A stretch of 64,000 bases of DNA from Saccoglossus kowalevskii (Eukaryota > Hemichordata > Enteropneusta > Harrimaniidae): the NCBI RefSeq assembly GCF_000003605.2, contig NW_003137821.1, forward strand, positions 492,586-556,585, read 5' to 3'. Position numbers and translations under genes: made by a program. Each line of letters opens with the position of its first letter. The stretch's first letter is position 1. This document shows, one piece after another, positions 1 through 39,093 of this stretch. Under the pieces are notes generated by a model. That model saw nothing but the letters and a program-made list of their open reading frames with translations, was not told where the DNA came from and searched no databases.

Positions 1-371
1 TCTCGATCATGAGATGGAATTTGTTGAACCTCTGTATATACATTATGGGACTTTGATGCACTTATTATTTTTTTCAGATTGGATTCAAAATCATGACTGA
101 CTGGCCATGACCGATCATGTTCAAATGTCATATGTAAATCATAGATCATGTTGCACATATGCACATGTATTTATTTTACAATCCAATTCATTAGTTCTAA
201 TGACCAATATATTTCTTAAACTTGATGCAATTACTTGACAATGTGTAATTAGGAAATTTTCACTGTGATTTTCAGTGACCCAAGAAATTTGCATTTACAT
301 AACTTTACATTTGTATTTGTTCAATTTCTTTAATTATTTCATAATTTGAATTATTCCATTTTTCAATGCAG
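1..371 (+). other. Intron of the ABCA gene, 3' part
   Basis: This is non-coding AT-rich sequence ending in a T-rich tract and the acceptor CAG at 369-371. The next exon opens at phase 0, so an upstream exon of the A type is expected outside the window. I see no repeat or other gene in it. Confidence 0.7.
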
Positions 372-2188
372 CTTGAAGACCTGTATTCTCCAAATGTAAC
401 ACTGGTTGAGGTGGATTGGTATGATTACTTCAAAACAATGGAAGAATACACCATGAACATAGAGAGGATGGCAAACTTCACAGGGCCATTCTTCCCATCG
501 TTACCAGTCATGTCCGTCAATGATACGTTGTGGATGCAAGATTTAATGGCAGGATTACAACTATCATCCATCAACCAGTAGGTGTTACACTATAATATAC
601 TGAGTATATACGATATGTTAAGTGTTTACTGATGGTATAAATGTTGTTAAATGATCTTACTTAAGATTAGACCTGTAGTTCAAATCACTTGGCTATGTAA
701 GTTCCAAACAATTAGATCTGTTTTTGGTCTGCATGCACATCAGTTTAAGAGTTTATTTTGCATATTTGAAAAAAAAATAAAAGAAAACAAAACAAACCAA
801 AACAAAAGATAGAAAGAAAGACGCCGCCTGGTGGTGTACAACTCTATTTTGCATGCCTGGAATGTAGGAATGAAATATTCTCAATGACGTACGCAGGTTA
901 ACTATTGAAATGCTAAGTTCAAAAATTATATCTTCATTTGGCTTTGTTGGTGTATTGCCCACTTCAACGTTACTACAAGCGTTTGGTGGCCTCGCATTCA
1001 TAAGGTGCTGGAGATCATTAGAACTTTGCGTTGAGAAAAAAAAAAACATCATCATTTTTCAAGATCTTTGGAGCACAGATGCATCTTTTTTTTTACATTA
1101 TATGTAAACTTGTGATATAAAAATTGTTAATATTATACACATATTGTATTTGTAGAATTCCAGAAATGTTGACAGTGATTGATTACATGCTTAGCAACTC
1201 AACATGGTGGCAGGAGCTCTCAAAATACATGGAAATCAGTAATATTATTGTTGAATCATTGAATGAACATTTGATGAAACTGAATGGTAAGTCAAATACA
1301 AATCGTGACATCAATAATGTTGCGAACCATCACTGCATGTTCTTGAAATTGTTGAGTTAAAACACCTTTCTGTTTTTGTTTTTGCACTTTCTACAGGCTC
1401 TTCAGTGGTTTATCCCAAAGTTGAAAACCTGTTTGCGGATAGGGAGGAAGTCATCAAAGTTCTAGAAAGTAATAATATGACCCCCGAGCTCATGGAGTTT
1501 TTCATGAATCTACTTGTGTACCCTGAAAAGGTAAATTGCTGATGAGTTCTTAAGCTGGGAATTCTTCAGATGCGTACGACTATGAGGTTATTACGAAAAT
1601 ATGAGTGAAGGCAGTACGGTGATTGAGCCACTGACATGTAGCAGATGTTGATGCAGGACTGTACTGCCTAAGTACTTATTTTGCGATACTCTCATGATTA
1701 GCTTTGATTCTTTGGTTTGCTTTATGAAGAAAGTTTGCTCGGTGATCTGGGTTGAAAAGTGCAATGTATTTTTGAACATATTACTGCACGTTTGATAGGC
1801 AGGGCAGACTGAAATGCTGATTTATACAGTTGACTCCGGGAATTGAACCCACAACTTTGGAGTCTTTGGATGCGAGGCAAATACACAAATCACTATATCT
1901 GGTTACTGTGCTGTCACTTCTCGTATCTCAAGTCACAGAAAATAAAATTCAAAGATTGGACAAATTGTAAGACATTATAATTCTATCTTTCAGCTGATCC
2001 AATTACTTGTTATACCCGATCCGTTTGTCACAATATGCAAGAGTGGTATGTTCCAGGAATTCTTTACCCTCCCTCCAGAATCAGACCTTAATATAACCGT
2101 CGTGGAAGACTACATATGTGACATCAATTTCACAGTTGTTGCCATGGAGCTCGGCCAGATGTTTGAAAGTGATAGAATCATGAATGAG
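372..2188 (+). CDS. Ectodomain module 1: exons B1, C1, D1, A1
   Basis: The exons are B1 372-577 (phase 0 to 2), C1 1156-1286 (2 to 1), D1 1397-1530 (1 to 0) and A1 1994-2188 (0 to 0). The B1 donor must be GTAGGT at 578, because reading four bases further meets TAG. C1 reads [12 protein letters not shown] and ends in a single G that is completed by D1. D1 ends NLLVYPEK. A1 holds the module's cysteine pair, in ICKSGMF and YICDINF, with LPPE and the sequon NIT between them. The protein is mostly helical-looking, with acidic and hydrophobic residues alternating and no membrane segment. This is the first module visible; others may lie upstream. Confidence 0.88.
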
Positions 2189-5100
2189 GTAATGTGAGAT
2201 CTCAATATGTGTTAGTTTGCATATTAGTTTGTTTTGCACTTATGTCTTGTTTGGCAGTCATTTGTTTTGTGTTCTTGGACTTGTAGTTTATTCCCTATTC
2301 ACGTTACACAATGTGGATAACGATTGGGTATGGAATTATTTCTACTTTTCATGAAATAACTGTTGAAATGTTTTTGATAATTTTCTTTTATTTTTTTGTA
2401 AATTCTTTGTAATTTTGGACTGAATGAGCTTTAATAATATACAAGTCTGAATGCAATATGGTTGAGAACATGTAATTTTCAGTATTACTAGTATTGTTGT
2501 TATGTACTGTATGTTGATAAATACATTGCATTCTGATTTATGATGCTTTAAACACTTTCTTGTTGCGCATAACATAACATGATTATTTGTTTGATAAAAC
2601 AATGTGGTTGATTTTTAGCTCCGCTGTTGACTTTGTCAAGTGGAGCTTATCATATCAGTGATTGTCCGTTGTCGTCAGGTGACGACCATCGTCTGTGTCA
2701 ACTTTTTACTTTTTCGACTTCTTCTTGAAAACTACAATTCTTATTGCCTTGATACTTAGTAAATATGTACCTTGGGCAGACTGGCTCTCTTAGATTTGTT
2801 CATTTTGTGATGATATCTTTGATTCTCTAATTTTGAGGAATATTTTTGTCTTTTTTGGTAAACGTGATATTTTCGACTTCTTGTTAAAACCGCAAGTTTG
2901 ATTGCTTTGATACTATACATATAGGTACCTAAGGTAGACCTCTCTCAGATTTGTTTATTTCGTGATATCTTCAGTTCTTTAATTGAAATGTGCATTTCTA
3001 ACAGCGGAACTATCTTAGCCGAGAGGCTGCTTGTTTTGGTATGTACAATATGAGGTTATTACGCGTATACTGATATGTTTGTAAATTGCACAGTTTCTTA
3101 AGTGTACTAACATAGTAAATACAGTGATACAATTTGGTCATCAAGATGCAGTTTCAAGCAACAATTATGAATAATAACAAATATGTGATTTTGTTCATAT
3201 TACATTTTTAGTATTTTTGTCATGAATAAAATATAAAAATTGCTATGGATTTATTTTGTGAAATCTGAATATAGTGTTGAAATATTAAATATTAATTAAT
3301 TCAATTTTGATACTAATGTGTTTCAGATACAAGATATCTTGGAGTCACCGTATAAAACATTTAACTGGACAGAGTATTTCATCAATAACTACAAACTACA
3401 AGAAACCATCCAGAATTTGTTTGATTTCCCGCCAACTTTCACCTTTGACCCTGCATGGATGAACGCAACATTTCCTCGATTGGAAGAAGTGTTAGGTAGT
3501 TTCATGGAGACGATGAACAACAACCAGACTGCCCCGATAAACTATTACTTGTAAGTTAAAGATGTTGTACGTACACTCTTCAGTGGTATTTATGTGGTTC
3601 ATTACGTAGCGTTAAAAAGCGGTTGCCCAAGTGTTCAAGCACTTCCTTATTGCAGCAATTTTTTCAGGTTACATATCTAGTAGCACTGTAGTCAGCATCA
3701 ACTTTACATTTTTGACTTTTTCAAAATGAAAAGTCCGCTCACTATGATGCTTTTTATATATTTACTTTTGAATGGACCTCTCTCAGATTTGTTTATTTCA
3801 GAATGATATCTTTAAATCTCTAATTTCGATGAATTGGTAAAAAGTGCTGTTTGTTACTTTTTCTTGAAAATGGCTAGCCTGATTGCTTTTGATGATTTAT
3901 ATGTAGACACCTCAAGTGAACCTTAATCAGATTTGTTTAATTTGTAATACTTCAATTTTAGTGAATATTTTTGCTTGCACATTGTTGAGAAAGTCAAAAA
4001 TATTGTGTAAACTTAGACCAGCACATATTGTTGGACTAGCAAGAATTTTCTAAATGTCAAGAGTTGTCACTCATTGTTGTACAATACATTGTGCCTTTAA
4101 TTTCATCATTTCATCAATAACATTATGCTCGCTTGGTACAAGTACAATGTTCAGTATCTAATTGCTACTCTGTTTTGTTTACATCACTCAGGGCTGCTAA
4201 GATGTTGGATGAAATGGGACCGATGCTACAAAATTCCAGTGTCTGGGAAAGCATCAGACCTATGCTGGTGACGCTGAACTGGTTGGCGGAATACATGAAT
4301 GAGAAGTTAGACAACATGCCAGGTGTGTAAATAAGTATCAATAAATTGTTGACTTAGCGACAAAAACTTACTCTGAGATGAAATTGTATGATGTGTGGTC
4401 GGCAGATATACACTGTATAATAAATGACACATAATCATGGTAAGTGTGATGTCAGAATGACGAAAATGGGTCATAGAAGTTTGTCTTGCTGGTGCTTCAG
4501 AAAATTACTCACATCGTCTGTTGTCATGGCAACTTATAATCATTGTTTGATTATAACATATATTGATTGTTTGATATTTCATGCCTCCACTCTACTAGAC
4601 AATGTATTTTTATAACACGTCCGTCATCTACTTTTTGATTTGCAGATGGCAATCTCACATTCGCCGATATTTTGCCGGGTAGTATTGCTGAGTATGTGGT
4701 TAATGGTATGAATGTCCCTCCACATCTCGTACAGAGTGTTTTAGAGTCAACCGTAAATCCTGATATGGTTAGTGTCTTGATATATACATGTGCTGACAGA
4801 ATCACTTTAACTTCCCATGGAAGTGCAGTGTTCATGCCAATTTGACATTGAGTGATTTTCTATTTTGCTCTGGGAAAGTCAAGTAAAATATTAATATTGT
4901 TTAACTTAAAGTTGCATTGTTGAAAGCCTTTTCAATTTTGAGTAATTTAGATAAAAATTGAATCTGAAATATTCATTATTCCTGATTTACAAACCTGACG
5001 CATTTTTATTTATTGTCTTCACTGCAATGAATCCTATCATACATTACTTTTTAACAGGACTGATTTTGTAGGGGTCGTGACATAAAATTGAATTCCTCAA

Positions 5101-8100
5101 AGTCAAATTGAGCTTGTTGACTGCTGGGGAGGTCCTGATTTCCTTCATTTAAACTGATTTTGTTTACAAATTGTGAATTTCATTTTACCAAATTACAAAT
5201 AACTATATTGAGATGTTTTTTAGGATTTCAATAACACACTAGTGAATTAGCATGACAAGTTGCATCACCGAAAATCAGTGTGCCTCAGTGGCTCATCGTT
5301 TCGGCTTAAAAGGCCTTTATGCAATTTTACCAATCTCTGTTAAATTCAGCAATTCAACTTATATGTAACACTTGTTCTTTTGTTCTCAGTTGCTTGCCTT
5401 GGTAATGGATGATGATCTATTTCAAACACTTTGTGGCAACGAAACAGTATTAGATAACTTGTTTGAATTTCCAGAAGAGGTCAATGTGACTGTCTTACGA
5501 GAGGCTCTTTGTGCCATCAATGAAACCGTTTGGGAAGCTGAATTAACTAATGATCTTAAAATACAAGAGTTGATGGCCTTGGTAAGTATGTTTCTCTGGT
5601 AATCTTTGATTTGTTCAGTCACGCACAATGTAGCATGTTTCAGTGGCATCAATATTAATTGCGTAAGTTGAGAGGTGAACTCTCTCTCACTCTGACCATG
5701 GCTGTCCGAATGTGAAGGACATACTTAAAAATGTCTCATAGTTTGGCATGCAATCAATCATAAAATTTATGACTATGAACTTGACTTGTAGATCAGTGTT
5801 GTGTTTTTTATACTTAATAAACAAAGTGAACGATGAACCATTGCTGATTCGACCATGCACAACCATTTGCGTACAACAATTGTGACCATTTGCCATGGCC
5901 ACAACAGTCATCATGGCTCCTGTTTGATATCTTACTCTCCCCTTATAAGATAAGAAAAGATAATTCTTTATTACAACCATATTGAAAGAAATTTAATTTA
6001 GGTGAATACAAATGTAATAAAGTAATACAAATGTAATACAAATGTAATACAAATGTAACAAATGTAACAAACTATTCTTAAAACTATACTTATCATAAAG
6101 ATACAGTAAAGAAATATTACTGGTACTTGAAGATAAAAATTAAAATATTACATTTCCACGAGTTTTTGTTTAACATTGACAATATTGTTTTCTTGTCCTA
6201 TATGATGTTTTTATGTGTATTTAATTAATTCTTTTATCAATGGTCTGTTCTCAGCATTTAAAAACTAAACAAGTTTTTCTGTATTATTTGCTTGAATAAT
6301 ACAGATAATCTTATTCTGGCCTCAGTATAAAGACTACATGATGTGAAAAAGTTTAGTATATACTTATTTAATGAATTATTCTCATTGAATAGCTAGAGCC
6401 TGGGAACCAGACTCCTTTCAACTGGACAGTAATGTTCTTCAATCTTGTTGAACTTGCTCAAAATATTGGAGAGGTCATGCAAGAGCAGAAAACCTTTTTC
6501 ATTGGTGAAGAATGGTTTCAAGACAATGTTGGTATTTTAGGAGAGATGTTTTTGTCTCTGGATATGACTGCACTTAGTGCACACATGGGCAGGTAAGTCC
6601 ATCCAATATATGAATTCCGTGTTACCTGGCTGCTCATCTTCTGTGTATACAAGAGGTTCGATTGCGTAAACGGAAATGAATAAGTACTGCATTCAAAATA
6701 GCAACTCCATGGAGTACAGTATGGTACACTACGAATGAAAATATGCAAGGACACTAGAAAAAAACATTCTGAGGTGTAAACTCATACTTATTATTAATAT
6801 TTCTAGAAATGTTCATTTCTCATGTGACATTCTGATCATGATCTTGCAATTTGCATGATTTATCTCTCATCAGTAACCATGGTGATGTTAGCAGTATACA
6901 CACTCATGCATACTGAGTTAAAAACTGTACTTGTAACATTTGTTGTTGTTGTTGTTGTTGTCTGAATAATTTGATATATTTACAACTTTGTAGCAATGGA
7001 ATTCTGGACACCCTAATGATGATGATTAATGGTAACGACACTGCAATAGTTGAAGATATTCTCAGAAACATACATATGCAAAGTAGTGTTTTGAATTTTG
7101 TGAATAACAAGCTGGACGACCTCACTGGTATGATATACAAGTTTGTTTTACTTGCGATTTGATCTCCCATGCTCAAAGATTGGGAAATTCAAATATATTG
7201 ACATACTGATATTTTCAATAGTTTTCGTCTTGATTGCAAGATCTGAAAACGTAACTTTAGAATTTTGTACCATGTGTGAAAACAGTTGAAATATGAAATA
7301 AGTGAACAGGTAATTTCCCAATCCCAACTGCGTTGCTTTTCAGTGATTTGTGGTAAATCCTGATAACCAATATTGCCTGAAAAAATTAGATTATATCCAG
7401 ACTATAATATTTTTAAATAAATTCATCGCTATTCTTGTTTTATTTTATTTTTAATCAAATGAATATTTAATCACAATATTTTTTTATTTTATTTATTATT
7501 AAATACTATAGATCAGTTGCCTTCAGGTATAATACAAAATTACATGTTTCAGAGGCCATACTCTAAATGACCTGTGAAATGAAAATATTACTAATCTTGT
7601 TATTAATAATGTGCTAGTTTTATGTTTATATCAAGGTGTTTCATCTCTTACATTATTTTTATTTCAGTGAATGATGGTACCTTGAATCTTGCAAAACTTT
7701 TCCCAAATTCAACCGTATTTGTGGAGTATCTCGAACGACAAATGTCCTTTGGAGAGGATTTTGTGAATGCAATGTTATTCACACAAGTTAAACCTGAGAA
7801 GGTAGATCAGTTATTATACTTACAAAAATCTATAGAAGCTCTGAATAATCTTTTTTTTAAGACATTGTAAAAATTATATCTACAGAATGTAGAGACTGAT
7901 GACATGGCAGGTATGCACACATGCAGAGTGTTGTGCATCAACACAATCTTACATGCCTTCACTTTTTATGCAATTTTGATTTATGATTCAGAATTATAAT
8001 TTGCAGTCCAGTGAAGTTTGTATTGACCATTGTTATTTGTACTCATTCAAAATGGCGGTTATCTCCAAATATACCGATGTATTTGAGAGTAAAAATGGTG

Positions 8101-11100
8101 TGTATCAGTTGAGAGCATGTACTGGTGATACAAATCTTAAAACCCAAATATGGACATTTGTATGTGTGCACAAAGAGAGCAATTTGTCTTTCTAACGTTA
8201 GGCAAATTTTTGACCTGCACTTGAACGCAAATGTTCATATTTGATCAGTGTAACAATTGTAATGAATGCCATCATTTCTCCCACCAAAATGGTTCAAAAT
8301 TTTGCATATATTTATGTATTTTTTCAGTTAATTTTAGACTAAATGGGCATAATTTATAATTGACTGTAGATTATAATTGAAATTTTTGAGAAAAAATTTG
8401 AAAAAACAAATTTAATGGTTTATTTTGGAAAAAGTGACACTGGCTGATTTTTGCGGCTGAATAGGTTAAAGGTCAAACGGTAATAATTATATGTTATTTG
8501 TCATCAGTTTCTGGAGTTAATGGAAATGACCGACATGGAGAGGAATGAGATGTTCTGTGAGCCTGACCTCTACAACGATTATTTCATTGTTCCAGAATTT
8601 GTAAATATAACAGTTGTTATGGAAACAATGTGTGGAATCAATGAAACTGTCTTGTTTATGGATCTATTCAAGGATATGGACATCGCTAGACTTGTTACAG
8701 AGGTAAGAAAAGTCTACACTAGTATAACTCACAGTGTTAAATTCCTATCCATCCCTGGTAAGTTCATAATCATTTCAAAGTCAGGTTGGAATCTTTTTTT
8801 TTTTTTTCACTAAAAATGTAAGAACCACGATAATACTACATGTATATGTATGATTTCTGTATTCATTTTATGGGTATCCAAATAGGCAACTGCTTTTCAT
8901 ATTTGGTGACCCCGGACAAAACTGGTTTTCTAGAGCCCCTAACCTTATGGTTATTCTCACCTGCATTGCAGACAGGATCTTCCCAAACAGTTTGGAAGAT
9001 TTTTGTATTATGATCTACCGGTATTTTGTTTATTTCTCTTAACAGCTAACAAGGTATACTGAGGGACTCATCGATTTACAAGATTTCAATATAGCAGAAG
9101 TTTTGGCAGAGAATAATAACTTTTACACGGTTATATCAGACAAAATTATGAAGCTTATTAATTCTACCGATGATGTTTACTTTGGAGAGGCCGACTTGTT
9201 AAATACTGAACCCTGGAATGTGACAGCCTTGCTTGCCAACTTACAGCGAATGTCAGAGGGTAGTTCTGGAATGCAAATTGATATGTGAGTTGAGTTTACA
9301 ATTTTCACTGTCAAATTTCTAAGATAAGTGTTTACAGTTTGAATATCCATGTACAGTTATATGCGATGAAGTTTCTATTCTACACAAGTCAAGTTTCATG
9401 ACAATCAAACATATTTGACATTGCAGAACATACAATGTATATATCAAATGCTTGGAAAACTTTGATTCTGTAAGCAGTACATGTATATGTTGGAGGTTAT
9501 TGTCATTTTCATGAAGGACAAAAACTTGTAATACTTTGGGAACAGCGTTGAGCACTAACCAGTTTTTTCACAGACTTGCCTATTTGCATTTAATAGTAAA
9601 TGTATACATTAGTGAACAATTTGCATGATTTCACATTGTGATCTTCGTATATGGCTACACTCATTTTATAAATTTCTGTGTGTGTGTGTGTGTGCGTACT
9701 TGCCTACAGCAGCTCCTGGCATCTCATTTTTGAGCAATTTTTCTATCACATCATGAATGTAGCCATACTTTGACACAACTGCTTGAGGGGCCTGCTACCT
9801 AGACGCGCCAACCCATAATTGTGTATGAGAGTTTTGGGTTATGTGAGAAGGAAATGTTAGAGTCACACTCTATTTATTCTGAAGGCATACACTGCTCAGT
9901 GGTTCTTGTGCTTTGTACCAGTTGTACATGATACCTCATATACATTGTGCTCTTGAACTATCAAGTAATACATCCCTGTGATTTTTGTCTTCTCTACTAG
10001 GATTGGCGACATCATGAATATGGTTGGACAAGAACTTGGGAACAATTCCGTATGGCTGGAAGTACTACGAAACATTCATATTATGGAGTACTTCCTGGAT
10101 CTTACAGACAGGGGCCTCGATGCCATGACAGGCAAGTCCAGTTGAATACAATGATTCAAATTTATATTGTAATATTAACTCTTGGTGTTGATAGCGCAAT
10201 CAACAAATTGTCTAATTTAATGGTGGCAAACAAAACTTGAAGAATTTGAATTGGTGTTGATAGCGCAATCAACAAATTGCCTACTTTTATATGTAAGTTT
10301 TCTACCCTCCTTGCAGATGGAGAGTTGGTGTTTGGGAAATTGCTTGAAAACCAAACAAAGTTAGTCTCATTGATGGAAAATTCACTCGGCCTGTCTCCCG
10401 AGAGTGCAATGGATCTTCTATCTGCATCACTGAATCCCGAAAAGGTAACTAAATTTTACAATTTTGCTGATTTTCGAAAATCTTGAACATTTGTCTTTTG
10501 AGAAATAACATAATTGTGTTTTTATTCAATCATGCAGCTGTTTGAACTGATGGATCCAGTCATGTGGGACACCATGGCATGTGATGCCGATTTACTTTCT
10601 GAAGTATTTAAATTTCCACCAACTGTAAACACAACGGCTTTAGTCAACGCTTTGTGTGGCGCGAACTTCACAGGTCTCGCTAATGCACTTGCCGAGGATT
10701 TGAATGTACATCGGTTGTTGAAGCTGGTAAGTAAACATTTCTTGTATATCTAATTAATTACAGTGAATACATAAAGATTCAATCAATACTTCATGTGTAA
10801 TAATTGTAATTAACATTTGATTAATTATCGATTGCCCTAATCATTAGAAATTATACGGGCAAATTGCCCCTTAACCACATCTTCTTACTCGATCTGATTC
10901 TATCATTTCAGGTGAGTAAAATTAGGTACCGGTTGTTAATTAAAACTGCAGCCAACTCATGGTTATAGCTGCTCAGCAGATTATGTACAGTCTCTGTACT
11001 TTTACCTATTATTTGAAAACAAAGATTATCATGTGTTCAGACCCTCATAGAAGATTTCAACGCTTAGGGAGTAAATTAATGCTCCATAGGTTGTTGTAAA

Positions 11101-14100
11101 TTTTTCAGTTTTACAAGTATATCAGTATTCATATTTGATTTTATTAGATAAGTGTAAAATTCTTCTTTCCAAGAATTGTGGGAGTTCATTTGCCTAACAA
11201 TAAAACCTAATTTATCTAATCATATTTGGAACAATAGCTTCATTAACATAAGAATGATTATTGTGTTCTTTGAGCTTACAACCACCATGCTCAAAGATTC
11301 CCTGGGAGAACCCTGGTATAATGACAGGTATATAATTATAGGCATGATTTTCAACTGAAGAAAGAAAAACGATATCTTAATTTCATAAATTATATAATAT
11401 AAAGTATAAATAATTTGGTATAATGTTTGTATCAGACCATAGTTAATTGCATTCACCATATATTAGGTTTCTCAAATATTATTTACTATATTTGTTTTCA
11501 GCTTGATCCAGCTACAATGGAGTACCCAATGCCACCAGTTGATTGGGTGGATGTAATCTACAAGATGCTTGGTGTGTATGAAAAATTGATGAATACAATG
11601 AACTCAACAATGCCCATCGCAGTACCACCAATGTTTGGAGACATGTCGCTGTTCAATTTCAACTCTTCAGATATATGGGCTGACCTCAGTCGTCTGCTGG
11701 GTGATAATATGACAATGGTAGACCCTATGAGGTAAATATATTATGCTTGTTTTAAGTGACTGTATAAGTGACGTTGTTGAATATTATTTTCTTACATGTG
11801 ATGGAGTTTGCTATACAGCTTGTGTCATTCATGAACTCTTTGGGAAACATCTACCAATTTTCATCACTTGTACACTTTATTCAGTATGTATAATACATGC
11901 TATTTTTCGATACAGAGTACAGTTACGCAATCATATCGTTGTTAATTCTCTATAGACATGTTTATGTTATGTATATGTTAGTTCAATTGCACTAAAAAAT
12001 ACCTGTGTAATATATCTAGACATTGCTCATCTAAGAGGTTTGCTCTTGCTCATCTAAGAGGTTTGCCCTTGCTCATCTAAGAGGTTTGCTCTTGCTCATC
12101 TAAGAGGTTAGCTCTTGCTGATCTAAGAGGTTTGCTCTTGCTCATCCAAGAGGTTTGCTCTTGCTGATCTAAGGGGTTTGCTCTTGCTGATCTAAGAGGT
12201 TTGCTCTTGCTCATCCAAGAGGTTTGCTCTTGCTGATCTAAGAGGTTTGTTCTTGCTCATCTAAGAGGTTTGCTCTTGCTCATCTAAGAGGTTTGCTCTT
12301 GCTCATCTAAGAGGTTAGCTCTTGCTCATCTAAGAGGTTTGCTCTTGCTCATCTAAGAGGTTTGTTCTTGGTGATCTAAGAGGTTTTCTTCTGATGATCT
12401 AAGAGGTTTGCTCTTGCTCATCCAAGAGGTTTGCTTTTGGTGATCTAAGAGGTTTGCTCTTGCTCATCCAAGAGGTTTGCTCTTGCTCATCTAAGAGGTT
12501 TGCTCTTGCTCATCTAAGAGGTTTTCTCCTGATGATCTAAGAGCTTTGCTTTTGCTCATCTAAGAGGTTTGCTCTTGCTGATCTAAGAGGTTTGATCTTG
12601 CTCATCCAAGAGGTTTGCTCTTGCTGATCTAAGAGGTTTGTTCTTGCTGATCTAAGAGGTTTGCTCTTGCTCATCTAAGAGGATTGTTCTTGCTCATCTA
12701 AGAGGTTTGTTCTTGCTCATCTAAAGTTCCAAGCATTGAAATGACTAGTGTACATAATTATCAAGGGATGACTAGAAACACCTTTAAGAGAAGGCTCTGT
12801 GAAGGATAAATGCAAATGAATACAGTGTACAAACTTTTTATATTATTATTACTTTTGTGTTTGTAGCTTTGGTCCAATACTGGATGAACTAATAGCAATA
12901 TTCAGTGTAAACGATACCGTCTCAGAGTACATTGAATCGATTAGCCAATTGAGTGAATGGATAACCAGTGAATTAGAAGGTATATCAAGCAAACCAATGA
13001 CTCTGGGTAACTTGTTTATGAACACAAGTGCATTGTCTAATGTGTTAGAGGAGAGTTTCTCCCTCACACCAGATCTGATAGACTCGCTGTTTGAAATGGA
13101 ATTATCACCAGCACAGGTATGTTACAAATAATGCAATATTAATTGCCAGGGTTTTTAGAGAGGTAACTGACCAAATTAACTTTAGTGTCAACATTTTTCA
13201 ACAGAAAGCTCAAACACAGGAAAACCTGTGTATAGCGACTGTTCAAGCTACTTAAAGAATTGTCTTTATAGACAAGTGTTTTTATACAGGGGTTGATTAA
13301 TTAATTTGTGAATGAAAATCTGATAGTATCTCGGTTTAAGGGGGCGATTTATCGATGGATGATTGAAGTGGTGAATAAATAATGAGAATAAATAATTTAC
13401 CATATTTGCTCTATTAGTAGCACATGTACATGTATTTCTATTGTCAAAATATGCTTGTTTTGATTAAATTGAGAAAGACAATGTTAAACACTTAATGAAA
13501 TTACCTTTCATATTTTTGGTCTTTATACACAGGTATACATTTGACCAAACCATTGCCAAAAAGGCAGTCAGTGTTCACATTAGACAGTTCACTTGTACAT
13601 GCATTGCATTGGGCTGCATAAAGGTGGTCACTCTCGCAAGTGGTCTTTATATAAATGTGGCCAGTAAAACAAGTTTGACTGTTTACAAGTGACTAACATC
13701 ATGCTAATTGTATAATGTCCAGACCTACTCTCAATCATTTCAAATTTTCATTAGCATAATGTACTTTTACTTTGTTTTAACATATGAAAACATTGTATAC
13801 TTTCTATTTTAGTTGACACAACTTCTTACTAGTGAGTCAGAACAACTTGCAGCTCAGTTATGCAACCACACAATACCTGATATGTCAATGATGTACATGG
13901 CGGAAGAGATACCTGAAGACCTTCGAGCGGCTTTATGCGATACCAACACTACTCAACTATTGGAAGAACTGATTGGGCAATTGGACATGATGAACATTTT
14001 GACTGAGGTAGGTTGCAATACTTGTATGCTCTGCTTGGTGTCTGTTGTTTTGTGCTATTTCAATTCAGTGTCGGATTTCTCAACTTGGTGTAAATTTAAA

Positions 14101-17100: not shown

Positions 17101-20100
17101 TTTAACGGAACCATAATTAAATTCTAATTTATCTATTCATGTTACAGCTGGCTGATATATACAACACGGGACGATGGAATGAGGTGTTCTGTGACCTTGA
17201 TGCGTTTGTTGATTTTTTTCCTTATACTGAACCATTCAACGTTACTGCTATTCAAACTAAAATGTGCACCCTCAATGTAACGCAGTTCTTTGACTTGGTC
17301 GGGAGTGATGTAGGAATTGATGTCTTAGAGATGGAAAAATGGGTGAGTATGCGTTATTTCAGTGATGACTGGCAGCGTAGTGATCGCAGACCATGAGGTC
17401 ACGAAGTCACGAGTGCAAATCCCACCTAGGGTTGAGCATAAAAATGCTATCAACATCATTACTCTTGTCGAGTATGCGAGAGTCATTCATTTTTATGTGA
17501 TTGTAATTTAGCAAGTTTCTTGGGTGAGGGTAAAACTAACCTGTCTCACAATGGCCTAATTCTAAATAATTCCAGTTTTCAACCAGGTTCGGTTGATGCC
17601 AGGATAGTATTTTAAAAAAAATGGTATATTCATACACACTTATTTGTTTCTAGATGTCCCGACTACTCGCTCCTAACGTCAGTTTTGCAAATTTACCAAA
17701 ATTTGACTGGGCCGACATGGTCGAAAATATCGAACAACTTCTGTATCTCTTTGAAGAACTAATGACATTTACTCCAGCTCATGACTATATAGGACACTGG
17801 AAATATGACGGAAATGATGGATCTATTAAAACGATACAATGAGGCACTACAGAACTATAATGTTGATATGTGAGTATACCTCCAAAAGCAATTTGTCTTA
17901 GTTTTATTGAAATTTTAACTGGTGTGATCATTAAACGTCATTAAATGTGTAAAACAGATGAAATGTGAATAATGTGATATCTGACATTACTGTCAATTTC
18001 AAATGCATTACTGTTGTGGCTTTCAGTGATTTTTTCTGAATCTCACAGTGATGAATTATCTGAACAAAGCCTACACCACAGTAGATATGAATATTTGTTT
18101 TGTAAGTGATCACATGATGTAATGCTTCATAATTAGTTACAACTGTATATCATTTGAAATAAATGCTGCCACAAGAATTTTCAATGGTGATAAAAACGTT
18201 CAGTTTATTGAAATTAGAAATGGATTATGTGAATTGGTCTCAACCGTTTGAGCACCATTGTCAACTTTTGGTACATATACAAAAATGATTGTGTACAATC
18301 TGCTCCACCTCACATGAAATATTGATGAAAGTTGGCAACATTTTTGATCAAAAACTAAAAAGGAATAACTGAACTCAGCTGTATGGTCCAAAATGTGGGA
18401 AATGTAGCCAAAATTTTACAAAATGTGAAAATTTTGACACTGAATCTTGTATGGAAATCAGTTTATCATGGATATCCATACTTTCACATTTAGAGAGATA
18501 TTTTATCGTAAACCTCACAACTATGAATGATATGCATGTGTGACATTTTTCATATATTATATACCAATTAAAAAATAAATACTGTGAAATACTTTATTTT
18601 AGCTGGAAGTAATTTTCGCTGAAAAGACTTTTTGGATGTTTTGTACGGAATTTATTTTCACTGATTTTTGACAAGTTGAATAAAAAATATAGGAAAAAAA
18701 GTATATTTATTTGCACTGAATCATTTCTTCAGCGAAAATTAATTCCAACCGAAAATAAAGTATTTTACAGTATTGTATTTTGAGAGAATTATTATTTTCA
18801 CCTCTATCTATCTTTTTTGTAGGATGATTGAGTTGTTTAGCAGTTTAGATTCTATGCTTAGTAATGATGGTATGTGGGGAAACTTTAAAGGTTACATGGA
18901 CTCCATTGCAACTATAGCAGAATGGTTCAACAATAGAGTGGACGAGCTTGAAGGTAATTTATTTTCAAAACATATTGTACATTGGGGTGCGTTGATGAGC
19001 ATGCATAGTCATTCAATAATTTAATATTTTCAAAATAACTGTTTAAGTTCTAGTTATATATACAGGGGTTTCACAAATGCATTTAATAATAATAATAATA
19101 ATAATAATTTATTTACCTAGAAAATATTTCATACAATACTCAAAATTGTACATGCAGTCTAGGTGAAATGGAATCTGAAATAGCTTAAAAGCTAGTCGAG
19201 TCAGATCAGGCCATTATCCTGTAACAACAGGCCAAAATAAATAAATAAAAAGGCTCTCGGCAGTGCGAACCGCTGCAGCGAAGCTGGCGTAGGCGATCAG
19301 GGGGCAGAGAGTAGGCAGCCAATTTGGACTTGCAGCAGGCTATATGGCAGGTGGCCTGCTCTTAATGAATCCCCTGTATATACTGGTAGTTAATAAAATT
19401 ATTATTATTTTGGTTATTCAATAAAATTATTATTACTTCAGTGACATCATTATATGATACTGCAGTCGTGTGTGCGAGTGCATGAATAAATTGAATATCA
19501 TAACTGTATGAATTGTGAAGAAATATTTTTTTTTTTCACTATGTTTTGCAGGGTTTAATTTCAACTTGACAAACCTGTTGAAAAACAAAACTGCTACGTT
19601 TGAGACTCTAACAAGTATGATGTCCCCAGAGACAGCTGAGGTGTTCAGAAAAGCTTTGATTAATCCTTCCAATGTAAGTATTAGTGGTGTACTCTTTTAA
19701 TTAATACAGTATGACCATTGCATACAAGTCAGTGATCGCACCACATGGCATCAGTATGTCTGTGTCTGTGTGTGTGTGTGTGTGTCTCAATCAATCTCTG
19801 TCTAGTTTCCAATGTGAGTGCAATGAATGCATGCATGTGATATTACCGTGTGTCTATTGTACCGGTATATAAGCCAATCATCATACCATATGACATTGAT
19901 GAATCTCTGTACTACAGTACTACAGTACTGCCAATAGTATATTAATGTATCAGCGGCTGGAACTGAGACTTAAAATGAAGCTCCCAGCAGTCTTCCATGA
20001 AATAAATACGCAATATAAAACTTTTTTTTATTTTCAGTTTATGCAATTTATGAATATAAATCAGTTCCAAGCTAATGTGTGTGATCAACAATGGTTCAAC

Positions 20101-23100
20101 TACGTTCTCCAATTCCCGTCTGACGTGAGTGAGGATGAGATTGCCTCACTACAGGAGACTTTGTGCAATATTGCAAAGAATGAAACTGCATTTAATGAGC
20201 TAACGTATGCATTCTTTGAGCAGTTTGATCTGTTGTCGTTTTATAATGAGGTGAGAAACTTTGACCACACACACAATATGCTATAGCAGGGGTTTTTCTA
20301 GAAAAAAAAACTGCAAGAGAGAGCACTGCAATTTAGCGGCGCCACCAAGTGGGGGAGATAGGGCTCTCCCTACCAAGGTGTGGGAGTTTTTGATAATTCT
20401 CAGTTAAAATGGAGCATTCTATGGCTTCCTTGGGGCCAAAATTACTATCAGACAGGTCACAGTTGAAGACTGTGGCCACATGTGATCCCTGGTCAATCAG
20501 AATTTTATGGTTGCCAGAGGATCTGCTCCCCAGGGTAAGGGGGTGCATGGCCATGGCATGAGGGCGCTGCACCCCTGTTCCCTTGTTTAAAGAAAATCCC
20601 TGCTATAGTGCAGCCATGGATGAATGTACTGTGTACAATGTGATGTTTCATCTTCTAATCAACACATACACAGGAATGGTGGGTCTTTATATTATAAAGC
20701 CAGATGTGTACCATAATGTTTAGGGTGTCCATGTATGAAGCATCATGCAGGGAGATGACGGGTTAGACTTCCATTGTTAGTCAGCCACTCAGCAAAGATG
20801 GCAATAGAACTATCTGCCCACTTACCATAATCACAAAAATAATGTGCATTTGGATTGGATGTAAAGCTGTGTATCCCAGCGTCCTTGTCACAAGATGATT
20901 GATTGGAATTTACCCCAATGAGGGTGCTGTGGGAGATTAGACTGGCTGGCTTCGATCAATTTAATCTGAATACAAAATATAATTATATAACTGAAGGTAT
21001 AACAAGTGCATTTTTGCATTACGCTAAATATGTCTATTTCTTATAAAATTGATAAATGTACCAGTTTTCGAAGGTGTCAAAATGCAATTTTTAAGACATG
21101 GTCTATAATTACCATTGCACAAATGCACCAGCACAGTTGATGCAAATAATGTTATTCTATTCTACAGATTGCAGCTATGATGAGTGGTAATATAGGCACT
21201 GATTTCATCGCATGGACAGCATTGGTAGAAGAACTACAGGAAGCAATGGACAAGATCAACATGATTCTTGAAAAGGATTTATTCAAGTATGGTAACCATT
21301 CAAATCCTTGGGATATGAACACATCCTTTATGGATAACTTTGTGCGTTCACTGAGAGAAATTCTTGTATTTATGTCTCCGGATGGGTAAGTTAATTATCT
21401 ACTCGAAAAACACACTTGTATGAAGTGTGCATAATTAGTGTTCATTTAACAGACTTTGGTAGATTTCAGTTATCATTCAACATATTAAATGCATTAACAC
21501 ATATATACTAGCCATCAGTGATAACAGATCTACCAGTAATCACTATTAGCATGGTGGTTTTTGTTTTGAGGCCATAAATCAGGGTTGAACAACCTGGGCA
21601 AGTGGGACTCAAAATTCAATGGCTTAGAGTTGTTCACTTATGGATTTAAATTGGGGGGGGGGGGACTTGGTTAAGGTTCACATTGCTTGTGTTTAAGCTG
21701 GTTGACACTATGATAGTGCATTAAACTGCCATTTGATAAATGGCTGCAGGTGGCTGCACAGTCCTGTCATAGATAAAAGCCGCACCCACTTTTTTTGAAC
21801 AATTGAGATCCAAAAATTCACCATTTCTCATATGAGTAGATGTTTTAATAGAGGTCACATCCCCTCTGTATCATTGTACTACTGTAAAAGGATTAATCAT
21901 TCACTGGGTTTTAATTTTGCTTATTTCGCTGACTGGAAAATGCGCTAAATTGAAACCCAGTGAATATGTAAAATTTAGCATAGAACACATTATCTAAATG
22001 ATAAAACCGTGAATTTAAACCCCATGGAATATGCCTAAAATGGTAAATCAGCAAATTTAAACACAATGAAAATTAGTCATTTTACAGCATTTTAATATTA
22101 CAGATTAAAGTATACATTTTTGGTATACTGTATCATTTAACTAATTATGCACTACTAATTGAGTAAATACGCTATTTTTAGTGTGTTACATGTAGCACCA
22201 TTTTACAATACTTCTATTTTCTTTTTTTCTTATAGATTCCAGAACGCTACCTCCCCTATGTGCAATATGGTGATGCCTTGGATCGGCAATACTACTATGT
22301 GGATGGAATATGTGGAGCCAAAACTGATTCGTGATGCACACTTCATGCGAATAATAAATGAGAACATTGTAACAATGGAAGGTAATGAATATAGCTTTCT
22401 ATGGAATGAATGAATAAATAAATGAATGAATCTAAAAAAATGCATTGATTGATAAATAAATGAATGAATAAATAAATAAAAAAATCAACACAAAATGAAT
22501 GAAATACATACGTGTATGAATGACACTGAATAAGTAAACATAAATCAATGGATAGAAGAAATAATAAACAAATGAATGAATGAATGAATGAATGAATGAA
22601 TGCAACAAAATTAAAAAATTGATTAAATTTAGTATTTTAGAATGAACTAATATATTCTGTTTATTTTTTTTAGAGAACATTTTAGAATCAATTGCTCTAC
22701 AAGACAATATGACAATGACGATTCAGTTTGCAATGGAAACGGTCATCGTGCTGCCGGGAATGATTGACGCATCTATCCAGATTATGAGTGATCCAAGGAT
22801 GTTACAGCTGGCAAGTTTCAATTATGACCATTTTTTTGTAAATTTGAATCCGATGAAAAAAAAAAATTACATAAATGAAGAGTTGCCATCTCTACAAATA
22901 GTTTGAATGAGTTCGCATTTTTAATTGTATACTGTAAAATATTTTATTTTCGATTGTAATTAATTCTTGCTGAACGAATGATTCAGTGAAAATAAAATCC
23001 AGTAAATATGTCTTTTTTCTTATATTTTACATTCAACTCATCACAAATCAGTGAAAATAAATTCCATACAAAACACCCAAAAAAAAACTTTCAGCGAAAA

Positions 23101-26100
23101 TTAATTCCAGCTAAAATAAAGTATTTTATAGCATGCATTATATTATGTCTGCCGATAGATGAGTTATAATATTTTATTTTATTGAGGCGATTAAAGTCAC
23201 GCCTGTAACTTTCACATTGTAACTTGTTCCCCCAGGTTAGTGGGGTATATTTCTTTAGAGAAATGGAAATAAAATAATAATAATAAATTATTGCAAAGTT
23301 TTTAAATACTAAAAATATATTAATAATAATTTTTACATAATTTTAGTATATGAATGCCAGTATGCAGCTCATTGATATGGGAGAGGATGCTGCAGCATTA
23401 ATTGTGTGTGACAAACTAAGTCTGAATATGATGATAGGAGCCCCCAGTAATCTTAATGTGTCTGCCATCTCAACTGTATTATGTGGCATGCAGAGAATTC
23501 GTTCCACTGAGTTGATGAAACAATCAATGGAGATAATGGGTATACAGTCAATGTTTGAGGAGGTAAGCATCTATCTATGGTACAGTAAATTTGTTGCAAC
23601 ATTTTTCAATTTAAAATTTGTTATGGTGTATTTTATCCTTCCATGGTATATATTTCATACTCTGTGGTATATGTTATACTCTTGTGGTATATGTTATACT
23701 CTGTGGTATATGTTATACTGCTGTGGTATAATTTATACTCCCATGGTGTATTTGATACTCCCACTATATGGTATACTGTATATTTCCATGGTATATATTT
23801 CATACTCTGTGGTATATTTCATACTCTGTTGTATATGTTATACTCCTGTGGTATATGTTATACTCCTGTGGTATAATTTATACCCCCATGGTGTATTTGA
23901 CACTCCCTCTATATGATATACTGTATATTTCCATGGTATATATTTCATACTCTGTGGTATATTTTCTATTCTGTGGTATATTTTTTATCCTGCAATGTCA
24001 TATGTAATGATATTGAAGACTTTGGAGGTGAGAGGGCATCCATTATCAAGGTCAAAATGTATAAAATGTCCGTAACATAGCAATAACGTAGATTCCATGG
24101 TTATCCGGGTAAGCGCCCATGCCCGGCCAAACATACATGTAGCAATAACATGGATAATATCAAAGGGTAGAAAAGCAAACTCGTTGGGCATCTCGGCAAT
24201 TGCCTTTAATGTCTTGGTCTATGTTATGATCTTCCCACGCTTACATATACAGGGCATGCCATGTATAGTTTAACTAGGATTTACTGCAGACCTGCAGTAT
24301 AACTTATACTCACATGATATATTTTATTTACAGATGATGTACATCTCCTTTGCACCAATAGAAGAGCTTGGATCGTTTAACTGCGAAGAATATGCAAATA
24401 GTATGCTTGAAATGCAAATCAATATGAATGATTTTGTTACTAGCATTATGAGTGGGAACCTTACCAGTGCCGTTTTCAATATGCCTCTACTGAATTTGGT
24501 TGATATAGCAACAGACCTCATGACTAAAGTTTCGCCAGATGAATTGCAGAGGTATGTAAACTTATATGATTGTATTACGAAAAAAAAACAAAAAAAAACA
24601 AGATTATAAATTTTTATTGGTGTATGTGATTTGACATTTTTCATTTTTCTTTTCTCAGTGTTGCCGAAATGTTGACGCTTTTTGCCCCGTTATTTGACAA
24701 CGAAACCCTGGCTTTGTTAGAAAACATGGATGCAATCATGCCTTATATGGGTATGATACAGAGGTGGATGGATGAGAGGATCAGGAACCAAAGTAGGTGT
24801 TTGCAAACTTAACTATAAAATAACTTTCATGAATTGTATTACTTTTAATAAATTTGAAATAAATTGAATAAATTTTTCTATTGTGTAACATTAAATGTTT
24901 ACATTCATTTTTCAAAATAAAGTATAAATGACTTTTGGATTCGATTGAGTTCTTTCATGTGTATTTAGAATTACCGGTAACTAATTTTCATGTATATGTA
25001 TACCTTTGTAGCTGTATCGAGCCTTCCTATTAGTTTCAAAGACGTATTTATTAACTCCAGTGCAGTGGAGCAGTACCTGAGGGAGGTACTGGAGTTGGAC
25101 ACATATTTGTTAAAAGTTATCATGAATTCATCCCTGAATACCGACGCTGTGAGTAATTATTTCACTTAAAGCGAGAGGGTCGCCACCTGCACACGTGTTG
25201 GAATTGAGTCTCAAGTGACGATAACAACACACGCTAAAAACGCAAAGGCTCATGGGTGGATGTTTGTTTGTAAACTATGACACGCTATGGCCATCTGACG
25301 CATGCGCAGGTGACGACTCCCTCGCTTTAAAACAAATTATATTATATTATAACCGAATTAAATTCGGATTTAAAATTTAAATGCCATTAATTCTTTATAT
25401 AATGCAAAATTGCCTTAACTTTGTAAAGGTAATAATGACATCATCGAATTAATCGTTTTTTGTTTTTTTTCTAGTTACTGAATATGATTGGCTATGATCT
25501 CATGGAATATGAAGAGTACACATGTCAAAGCGCACTGGATGATCTAATCCTCTTCCCACCTGCAGTCAATGTTACAAGGGCCCTTAATGACCTCTGTATG
25601 CTGAATATATCGTCTGTGATGTTTGATTTGAGAACGTATATCGACTGCCACAGCTTGTACTCGAGGTTTGTGCAATGAACTTTTATGAAGTCAAGAATGC
25701 ATCAATAATTGTTGCCGTCAATAACAAAATCTGTTTTTTGGGGTAGAAATTTGCTATATTTTGAATGCTTAACTAGAAGATGGATGTAATGGATGGAATT
25801 ATGATCGTCGTCAATAAAAAAAAAAAATTTTTGTTGGTAGAAATTTGCTATAATTTAAACGACTGATTTGGGCATTTCATCATTAGAGGGCGCTTTATTA
25901 CATTTTTTCTGGGAATTCACATACTTCCACAACCTATAGAGTAATTAAAACCTATCTATAACTTGTTGAAATGCTTTTTCTTGTTTCCATTTTACTCGTA
26001 GCTCGTTGAGCTCAAACCTGATCGCAGCGACGTTGACTATTCAGCTTTACTTGATGAACTACAAGAATTCATCAACGATGTTCGTCCAAGCGACGAATTC

Positions 26101-29100
26101 CTTTCCGATGTTGAGGAGATGTGGAGTGATCTACAAGGTGCTTTAGAGGAAGAAGAGGATGCTGCTAAGTTGATGTTACTTACTGATCAAAAAACCATAG
26201 ATGTTATCATGCAGTACGTATACAGATGCCGCTTCTATCATATTTGTATTTTTAATATCAATGTTATTAGAAGTGCCTTCCTTTTAACCTTTTCACCACT
26301 AGACTTTCTCGCCTAAATTTTTCTGCACTTTTTTTTGTATTCTCCAATATTTCTGAAAAAGAACCCAAATTTTTCAGCCAACAGACAGAATTTGAGTCAA
26401 TTTTCAGTTTTTACTAAAAAGATTTGGCTATTTTTGTCCCAATCTTCTGAAGGAAAATGCAGACTATAAATGGGACTATTTTGTGAATTTGTGATGAAAA
26501 GAGGGAACTGGTGGTGAAAAGGTTAACATATTTACTTGTGCCAAAATGCTTAGAACTTTTGTATGGTTTGTTTTGTTTGTTTTCTTTTGTATCTTCTTTT
26601 CTTGACTTTTTCTTCTAGTTTCTTCACATGACAGTGTGCATGGAAGTTTTAGGTGCTCTATAGTTGTTTAGTTACCATGGTACCATGCATGCGAAACATT
26701 GACCAACGTTGCCTCATTTCCTGTACCTGAATATGTTTTAGGCAGCTATACCAGCTTAATTTTGTACTGAACATATTGATTTTGTAATTGTTAATTTGAG
26801 TTAAGTTTACAGAATGTTTGTAAAATACAAAAAATGTATTTTTCATTCTCAGACACACAAAGAATCATGATAAATCATAATTTATAACACTTAGTTTCTA
26901 AACGTATATTGTAAAATATTTCCGGGGACATCAGAGGATTCAATGTGAGGCAAATGTGCTCACAACTGATTGTAAAATCAACATCCCTTTTTTTTAGTCG
27001 TCCCGTGCTTAGTCACCCATCTATACAGAACCGTATGACCCATGTATTACGAGTGTATCCATTTTTCGTTAATTTCTAGATTGGGAGATCTTCTGGAAAA
27101 GTTGGAACCCTTCCTGTATGACAACCCAGCCTACCAACAACTCCAAGAATTCTTCAACGCTTTCAAGACTCTACCATTTTTACGCGACTTGCTTGGCATT
27201 ATTCCAGGTAATATCAGCAACATCATTTGGGGGGGGGGGGGGCATCACTGTGAAAATTGTTTGCAAGTATTCTGGGAGTTCTGGCAACTTAACAATTTCT
27301 TGATACTCATATTAATGAAGAACACTGCCTGATGACTCAGACTAGAGTTGGTTGATAAGTTTTGAGATCACTCTGTTTTACTCAACACATTTAATACTAA
27401 CAAAACACCTACGCATGTACATGAAAGTGTATGTAACATTAATTGACTCAAAAAATATCTGTACATTTTTCTCAATAGATGTTAAGATGTCCGATTTAGT
27501 AATTGCTCCAAACAATTTCAAGGATTTCCTTGTGAAAGAACTAGGATTCTCCGAGAAGGTTGCAGAAGACTTACTCAACGCTAAAATCCGGTTTGATGAG
27601 GTTATTTTTTTATTTATTTTTAATATGGTTCATTGATTGTCTTAATCTAATCATGGAGGTAAAAAAAGAAGGAGCACCGATGCCTATTGTTTCCTTTGTG
27701 TACTATGATAGTTGGCGATTGTTTGCCAAGCAAACAATGCGCTGTCTGTTTTCCTGTTATCTGCATAATCCCTTAATGAGGATTACGTGGTTCGGAGTCT
27801 TCAGACAAACTTTGACAATCATCCGAATGAACTGCGCATGTGCAGAACCAGAGAAACAAACATGGCATCAGGCGTCGGGCATAACACGAGTTCCTATCGA
27901 AATTTCCGATATAGATTTTTCTGCGGAAGAATGGGCAGACTTGGCCGTAGTTGGGAATGAACTGGCTATTTTTCACCAGTCATTTTGTATATGTGGTGTT
28001 GAAGAGACAGAAAGCATGATTGCATGTGACGACAACGACTGCACAGTGACATGGTTTCATTGCCAGTGTGCAGGGTTGACAGCAAAAACTAACCGATGCA
28101 CTGTTCAGCGTCCTACCATCGCACCAATTGTCGCGATTTTTGACAACTGCTCGCCGTCGCTCGCCAGATTTGACAGTGGTTTTCAAAAGCTGAGGATGCA
28201 AAGATTTTATAAAAAGTTAAATATTTTTGCGGAATTCTGTGGATCATATAAATAAAGTGTTCAAAAGCTGACTCGTCAGAGAGAATAAAATAGAGTCAAT
28301 CTTCAACTACAAACGGGATTAAATGTCCAAGTGTCTAGTTTCCGGTGTGTAGTGTGAATGGTGACCTCTTGTTTTCAACAAAGGTCACTGCGCATGAGTA
28401 ACGACCTCATTTATGGTCTGCGCAACTGATTTAATATTTCATCGGAAAATTGTTTCTGTGTAATCTGAATATTACCGTCAGTACACTAGTTTAAACAATC
28501 GCCAACTATCAATGAGTTCAAAGACCTGGAGCACAAAGGGATAAGGAGATTAACTTAGCAATAAACAATTGAATTTAATAGGCTTATTTTCCATCAGTGC
28601 TCCTTCTTTTTTTACCTCCATGATCTAATCATATGGAGTTGGAAGTTTATATTAAATGTTGTGATTACTTTGTGTGTCTGATTGCTGTTATTTTTATTTT
28701 GTAGTTTTTCAGCCCCAACAGCACTAAAATATCGGACATTGTTTGCACAGAAGAGGAGCTTTCTCAGCTGCTTGCGTTCCCGCCAGGTTATAACGTAACC
28801 GATGTTATTGACAATATTTGTATCGGAGATCAGAACTTGCTTATTAACATAACAACGGAAATTATAAGACAATTAAACATTGGGACTCTCATACAAGAGG
28901 TAGGGATAATTGTGCAGTATTTCAGAGGTGAAAAATTGTATATTTATGTACTTTAAATCACAGATGGATATATTCACAGATGTGTTTGATAATTAATTAC
29001 TTTCTTGGATTGCCGATCGCTTTGTTTGTGAAGACAATTCTGAGAAAGTTTACTCGTTCAGATTATACTACATGCGTCTAAAGTTGAATTCACACTTAAA

Positions 29101-38100: not shown

Positions 38101-39093
38101 CACTGTGTCAAAATTATGTGTTTTGACTTGTGATTTGCCTCATGTACGCCGTCTGTGGTCTCTATTAAAATAACACTGTGCTCTATTCACTGAGCTCAAT
38201 TGAGTAGAAGAGTTCCTTACGATGAATATTTGACGGATTTAAAATTATTAATACAGTAGCTGATCGTTTTATTTAGTGATATCGAACCAAACATAAACAT
38301 GGCCTTGTATGGAAAATCCTTGATTTAGCCGTTTTTGTGCATCCACCCAGCTGTTAAGACACAGAATGTTATGTTTTTATTATAGGACGTTATGGAGTGC
38401 CTCGTCCATTCTACTTCCCATTGATGCCATCATACTGGTGCAGCTGCTGCATTGGGAGTAGCGGAAGTAGTCACGACAAGTACAGACCAAGTGACCCCGC
38501 GGTGCAAGCCCACTCAAACCCAATTTATGACCTTGAAGGAGTGGAAGGTATAAAATTCATTAATATTATTTTGTTATTATTATTGTATGTGTTTCTTTGA
38601 CTTCAACTATAATTTTTTTTGCGCGATTATGGCTATGCTATGAGATGTTGTTTAGTACTGATCCTATATAATATATATCTTGTGTAGTTACATTAAGAAT
38701 TTTCAAGCCAAAGATTATCATTATTATGCTCTCATCATTATGGGTTAAAATCATTTGGGATACCAAAAAATAGAGGAAAAAATGGGGTCAGCACGCACAA
38801 GTCAGAAATGTCATAGAAAGTGGTCAAAATTTGCATTTTTATGCTGGATTCTATGATGAAATGATAGTTCTACCCAGGACAATATATAAACCTGTGGTAC
38901 TATCATTGTCAACTTGCATGTTAATTTGCCGATGTACATGTGTGAATTTCATGTACTTTTAAAAATAAAAAATGATGCCAAGTTTAGATAAAACTAATTA
39001 TGCTAATTTGTATGCAAATTAGCCACAGTGCTTAAATTTTGGGGGACCAGGAATTATTTCCATTTTTTATATCAATTCGTGAAATTTTGCTCA

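Follow-up and report, generated by a model that had tools for sequence, protein, structure and literature searches.

The stretch analysed here (the window) comprises 64,000 nucleotides (nt) of the hemichordate Saccoglossus kowalevskii, positions 492586-556585 of contig NW_003137821.1 (1,564,211 bases, in a genome of 572 megabases). It contains part of a gene for a transporter of the ABCA family, in which a module of four exons, denoted B, C, D and A, is repeated in tandem in the first extracellular domain (ECD1). The 100 kilobases (kb) upstream of the window were added to the analysis, and positions on this added stretch are given as negative window coordinates. We consider it probable that the locus holds one ABCA1-type lipid transporter gene, in which a single part of ECD1, the lid, is present in eighteen tandem copies and forms an extended ectodomain.

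Within the window, scans for splice sites and reading frames display the exon order B-C-D-A ten times on the plus strand between 372 and 28899, with B leading from phase 0 to phase 2, C from 2 to 1, D from 1 to 0 and A from 0 to 0. Exon lengths are 200-239 nt for B, 113-146 nt for C (the minimum of 113 nt reflecting our own cut of a fused C-D exon), 122-137 nt for D and 189-216 nt for A. Counted along the whole gene, these ten modules are U9 to U18. Module 1 (U9, 372-2188) consists of B 372-577, C 1156-1286, D 1397-1530 and A 1994-2188; module 2 (U10, 3327-5581) of B 3327-3550, C 4192-4322, D 4646-4767 and A 5390-5581; module 3 (U11, 6393-8702) of B 6393-6592, C 6994-7127, D 7668-7801 and A 8508-8702. 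Module 4 (U12, 9046-10726) comprises B 9046-9284, C 10001-10131, D 10317-10444 and A 10538-10726, while module 5 (U13, 11502-14007) comprises B 11502-11731, a single exon 12867-13116 for C and D, and A 13813-14007. These are followed by module 6 (U14, 14690-17342; B 14690-14922, C 15696-15820, D 16475-16600, A 17148-17342), module 7 (U15, 17654-20250; B 17654-17869, C 18823-18953, D 19552-19673, A 20038-20250) and module 8 (U16, 21168-23562; B 21168-21385, C 22236-22381, D 22674-22810, A 23347-23562). Module 9 (U17, 24334-25665) has B 24334-24551, C 24659-24792, D 25012-25148 and A 25475-25665, and module 10 (U18, 26002-28899) has B 26002-26213, C 27080-27207, D 27479-27600 and A 28705-28899. 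The order and the phases are those reported in a preliminary description of the window, but the regularity is broken in places: C and D are fused in module 5, exons C4 and D8 end in GC splice donors, and D6, B7 and A9 contain apparent frameshifts. Introns of the array also carry repeats of their own: a minisatellite at 12023-12724 with a step of 69 nt (about 90% alike), and dispersed repeats in both orientations, 81-91% alike, at -15953 to -15749 and 21880-22087 and also at 18579-18773 and 22929-23134, perhaps representing a mobile element.

Profiles built from the window exons, when searched against the upstream 100 kb, detected extra A exons, and eight further modules (U1 to U8) could be assembled there, every one of them open and in frame when spliced. 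The first codon of the gene model, an ATG, lies at -28913, and the first three exons are exon 1 (-28913 to -28848, 66 nt), exon 2 (-28142 to -28049, 94 nt) and exon 3 (-27385 to -27250). U1 (-25757 to -24609) consists of C, D and A without a B exon. It is followed by U2 (-23903 to -21250), U3 (-20574 to -17802), U4 (-17435 to -14187), U5 (-13208 to -11727), U6 (-11361 to -7861), U7 (-6513 to -3375) and U8 (-2470 to -280). The ten modules and the span 372-28899 given by the preliminary description are thus correct for the window, but the array starts about 26 kb upstream of it and the total is eighteen. The proposal to look upstream for more modules yielded both these eight and the start of the gene, and the rod of at least 2,200 residues that had been predicted grows to about 4,000 residues.

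The repeat stands well above chance. With profiles from which the scored module was left out, the joined C-D-A core of 18/18 modules scores above all 200 shuffles of itself (29.8-114.4 bits; top shuffle 9.5 bits), as the preliminary description would have it; near-identical partners (U5 and U6; for exon B also U6 and U7) were left out as well. Among the B exons, 11 of 17 exceed all 200 shuffles. The joined core was chosen for testing because single exons of types B and C give weak tests: in a six-frame search of the window, 23 of the 40 left-out exons lie above the best non-module match and one more ties with it, namely all ten A exons, six D, four C, and three B plus the tie. In this single-exon test only the open piece of each frameshifted exon was used.

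A blind search of the entire PDB with the profile of the ten window modules places human ABCA4, residues 124-233, in the four top rows, with E values between 8.7e-6 and 9e-6, followed by a designed protein at E 0.013. Family databases are less informative for the ten modules. Pfam reports nothing for the first member and otherwise gives stray matches to four families, each from a single one of the ten members (best E 0.081). NCBIfam likewise returns four stray families (E 0.0086 at best), but here one of the ten modules also matches TIGR01257, the rim ABC transporter model for ABCA4, with E 9.6e-6.

The N-terminus together with U1 aligns to ABCA4 1-240 from methionine 1 onwards (E 9e-28). Published exon borders of ABCA4 lie, in the part of the source concerned, at c.302/303, 442/443 (Gly148), 570/571 (before Phe191) and 768/769 (after Val256) (PMC7544654). 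The alignment pairs codon 99, which is split between exon 3 and C, with ABCA4 codon 101; codon 146, split between C and D, with Gly148; and codon 189, with which A opens, with Phe191. The C, D and A exons of U1 measure 140, 128 and 198 nt, equal to ABCA4 exons 4, 5 and 6, so that the border at 768/769 matches as well; exons 1 and 2 have 66 and 94 nt in both genes. This agreement in borders, phases and lengths identifies C, D and A as the counterparts of ABCA4 exons 4, 5 and 6, and the unit that the preliminary description had noted in this part of ABCA1 is found near the place it gave. Passages of a structural report on ABCA4 describe residues 138-271 as unassigned density, a flexible and hollow lid on top of the tunnel formed by the extracellular domain (ECD) (PMC7932691). 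By homology, the core of the B-C-D-A module is an ABCA4-type lid.

Its resemblance to the lid of ABCA4 and ABCA1 extends over sequence, intron positions and phases, the exon lengths of U1, the position between the first transmembrane segment (TM1) and the remaining ECD1, and the two cysteines of the A part. Exactly two cysteines are present in 15 of the 18 modules, which bears out the pair of conserved cysteines noticed earlier, and 113 N-glycosylation sequons were counted in 4,027 residues, about six per module; both counts omit exons 1-3, the lectin exons described below and the codons split between B and C. In contrast, ABCA4 possesses one lid, whereas the present gene has eighteen, with an exon B between lids, and one of the eighteen houses a lectin domain.

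The exon structure may suggest how the array has grown. The unit B-C-D-A has phase 0 at its start and at its end across the modules, so its duplication is frame-neutral, in line with the tandem duplication of a phase-neutral unit proposed before. ABCA4 continues after exon 6, the equivalent of A, with exon 7, which likewise starts in phase 0. Exon B starts in phase 0 and ends in phase 2, the end phase of ABCA4 exon 3. In a tree of the modules, in which nodes are mostly weak, U1 and U18, the two ends of the array, group with ABCA4 at a support of 0.96, as would be expected if the inner modules are later copies. Most likely a single ECD1 lid was multiplied to eighteen by copying along ancestral exon borders, and the inner modules would have been produced by later copying between the ends U1 and U18.

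Some of this copying is recent. The C-D-A parts of U5 and U6, together with the B exons of U6 and U7, differ with Ka 0.036 and Ks 0.21 over 233 codons, and the DNA matches between them (within -12791 to -6218) amount to 79.6-92.1%. The low Ka relative to Ks indicates selection on the protein, and these exons are recent copies under purifying selection. Nearly identical U5 and U6 proteins, and the apparent frameshifts in D6, B7 and A9, which may reflect assembly error or decay, could also be taken as signs of a decaying gene or of a partly wrong assembly, with modules that are broken or artificially repeated. We consider this unlikely. Besides the purifying selection, the introns between C and D in U5 and U6 measure 132 and 937 nt, which shows that the two modules are not one stretch assembled twice. 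In addition, all 32 upstream array exons are open, Pfam finds both nucleotide-binding domains (NBDs), and the runs of N noted on the added stretch lie outside the gene.

Downstream of the array the gene continues on the plus strand with a linker exon at 30325-30766 (possibly with an inner intron of 78 nt at 30554-30631), which has the place and phase of ABCA4 exons 7-8 and encodes a VCG motif; a search with its sequence gave no match in the PDB. It contains two sites that resemble the furin consensus (RKKR-D and RVKR-E), at which the protein might be cleaved. An acidic, low-complexity stretch is also present in this linker. The remaining ECD1 and the start of the next transmembrane segment follow at 32542-35313 (exons at 32542, 32789, 33911, 34764 and 35199), where ABCA4 366-554 is matched from 32542 on with E 1.2e-22. 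Just past the exon 35199-35313, a tandem repeat at 35292-35624, apparently mostly intronic, encodes a run of 13 residues several times over in an open frame. The exons of transmembrane domain (TMD) 1 were placed at 35989-38547 in a rough model, NBD1 (PF00005) and the stretch after it at 39410-42898, the exons for TM7, the second extracellular domain (ECD2) and TM8-12 (PF12698, again a rough model) at 44909-52013, and NBD2 (PF00005), R1_ABCA1 (PF23321) and the C-terminal exon at 52332-58186. PF12698 (ABC2_membrane_3) and PF00005 (ABC_tran) are above cut-off in both halves, and PF23321 is found after NBD2 near the C-terminus with E 1.5e-22. Two halves of TMD and NBD, R1_ABCA1 and an ABCA4-like ECD1 (1-240 and 366-554) establish the ABCA-type transporter that the preliminary description had recognized.

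As the transporter core starts only after the array, and the joins between the two are predicted from sequence, the upstream array might belong to a separate gene, for example for a secreted lectin-containing protein, beside an ordinary ABCA gene. However, the exons from -28913 to -24609 represent the N-terminus of ABCA4 with TM1, the next stretch of ABCA4 (366-554) begins at 32542, and, three sites apart, the reading frame runs unbroken through the intervening modules. A separate gene appears highly improbable on these grounds.

The N-terminus and U1 to U18 add up to 4,279 residues, and the modelled part after the array to 2,108 residues, a figure that falls to about 1,810 when all 14 exons shorter than 85 nt, some of them doubtful, are dropped. 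By this estimate the predicted protein would have about 6,200 residues (6,090-6,390), compared to 5,058 for ABCA13, and would exceed every human ABC transporter in size. In the genome, searches with two A exons gave at least 7 and at least 3 matches, on this contig only among the matches listed, and a search with an ECD1 exon gave one doubtful second place (E 0.815) among those listed. A search for ABC_tran gave at least 20 places; those listed lie on contigs other than this one, and the present gene was not scored among them.

For comparison within the family, provisional sequences of human ABCA13 and ABCA12 were used, which serve as leads and are not database records. Half 1 of the core scores 728.8 bits with ABCA1, 674.4 with ABCA7, 667.5 with the provisional ABCA12, 656.1 with ABCA4, 615.1 with the provisional ABCA13 and 575.4 with ABCA3; half 2 scores 866.1 bits with ABCA1, 764.7 with ABCA4, 744.1 with ABCA7, 732.3 with ABCA13, 689.8 with ABCA12 (both provisional) and 590 with ABCA3. 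ABCA1 is the top PDB match of both halves, and the provisional ABCA12 ranks above ABCA4 in half 1. Ranked by pairwise score, we class the gene as putatively of ABCA1 type and not as an ABCA13.

A very long ECD1 is nevertheless shared with ABCA13, and the preliminary description had suggested that the giant exons of vertebrate ABCA13 might be intron-less descendants of such modules. The provisional ABCA13 has the proper length of 5,058, and residues H3609, T4031, T4550 and R4843, as named in the literature (PMC7948424), all agree (4/4), although these positions do not verify the letters in the middle one by one. Scanning this sequence with the module profile reveals a single clear module, at 3053-3172 (29.6 bits, 0/200 shuffles reaching this score), near the end of the giant region and at the place equivalent to that of the module in ABCA4. 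Between 100 and 3050, no module was detected above shuffles (best 0.9 bits, reached by 27/200). In the provisional ABCA12, residues 508-618 form a single faint module (4.0 bits, 0/200 shuffles), where a profile of A alone finds nothing (16/200 shuffles reach its best score). Searching other ABCA proteins with the module profile hence succeeded for ABCA4 124-233, for ABCA13 3053-3172 and, faintly, for ABCA12, but not for the long region of ABCA13, and the descent of its giant exons from such modules finds no support there. An origin of the array and of the giant extracellular region of ABCA13 from one ancestral multi-module ectodomain would be in line with the length of both regions and with the single modules in ABCA13 and ABCA12, and old repeats in ABCA13 may have faded through very old divergence. 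Given the lack of a detected module in 100-3050 of the provisional sequence and a core that scores closer to ABCA1 than to ABCA13 in both halves, we regard a shared origin as very unlikely.

One module carries an insertion of a different kind. In U3, a C-type lectin domain lies in frame between the C and D parts, encoded by two exons (-19719 to -19503 and -18656 to -18454) with phase 1 on entry and exit; Pfam identifies it as Lectin_C (PF00059) with E 2.5e-11 and a score of 44.7 bits, the cut-off being 22.6. B and C of this module form one exon that ends in phase 1, followed by the two lectin exons and D, and the cassette occupies the position expected for the phase-1 intron between C and D. 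Equal phases at both borders are familiar from shuffled extracellular domains. The present cassette resembles C-type lectin cassettes in its Pfam match and in its two exons flanked by phase 1, and differs from them in residing in the ectodomain of an ABC transporter. The canonical calcium and sugar motifs of such lectins are EPN or QPD and WND; by eye, none of these is seen in the translation of U3, which renders sugar binding doubtful.

With a lectin domain in U3 and about six sequons per module, the array might serve as a passive stalk or adhesion rod that lifts the lectin domain above a glycan coat, with no lipid moving along it; many long extracellular proteins function in this way. We consider this possible, though somewhat doubtful. 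The lectin domain belongs to module three out of eighteen, the array is joined to the transporter core at each of its ends, and the missing motifs do not speak for sugar binding. Furthermore, the copied unit is a lid that covers a lipid tunnel and is reported, in the passages on the ABCA4 structure, to be hollow (PMC7932691).

Based on this dataset, the explanation we favour is the single ABCA1-type transporter gene with a multiplied lid. In the gene model it starts at -28913 with equivalents of ABCA4 exons 1-6, the lid of which is U1; seventeen units of B and the equivalents of exons 4, 5 and 6 follow, and then the rest of ECD1, the TMDs and the NBDs up to about 58.2 kb. Stacked on the ABCA tunnel, the lids would build a long ectodomain that is glycosylated and pinned by disulfides, and the lectin domain would be placed far outwards. 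Such an ectodomain may reach a lipid acceptor or a surface at some distance, and the conserved core is expected, by homology, to move lipid as ABCA1 does. In the anatomy and origin of the array we have high confidence; the functional half, a long stacked ectodomain reaching a distant acceptor or surface, is put forward tentatively. Several points weigh against this explanation. Apparent frameshifts occur in 3 of the 39 array exons of the window (none in the 32 upstream), exon B is weakly conserved, and exons B and C perform poorly when scored one by one. The exon joins are predictions, the exons of TMD1 and ECD2 belong to a rough model, the canonical motifs are missing from the lectin domain, and the stacking of lids with a continuous hydrophobic path is a proposal derived from sequence.

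A bolder version of the favoured explanation would regard the protein as an extracellular bridge-like transporter, a counterpart, outside the cell, of bridge proteins like VPS13. The eighteen hollow lids would then form a continuous greasy channel of some tens of nanometres, kept in position by the lectin domain, and lipid pumped by the ABC core could travel through it to a distant membrane or matrix. We would not expect this to hold.

Literature searches on C-type lectin domains in ABC transporters, tandem-repeat or invertebrate ABCA13, the largest invertebrate ABC proteins, the extracellular domain of ABCA12 and ABCA13, the ABCA1 lid and lipid transfer, and tandem exon duplication involving ABCA1 returned nothing like the present gene, as judged from titles and the openings of abstracts. 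In the case described here, giant size has a clear origin: the ABCA lid, a part that is known but poorly understood, was copied again and again with its ancestral exon borders as the limits. As the long region of the provisional ABCA13 is not lid-like in our comparison, giant ABCA ectodomains may have arisen in more than one way. Passages in the structural reports describe the lid as poorly resolved in ABCA4 (PMC7932691, PMC8219669), and the role of the ECD in lipid hand-off is presented as unsettled in the part of a further source concerned (PMC13161189), which makes a series of lids useful. Eighteen diverged lids provide a natural evolutionary record of those lid residues that matter, and the passage of lipid from lid to lid becomes a testable question.

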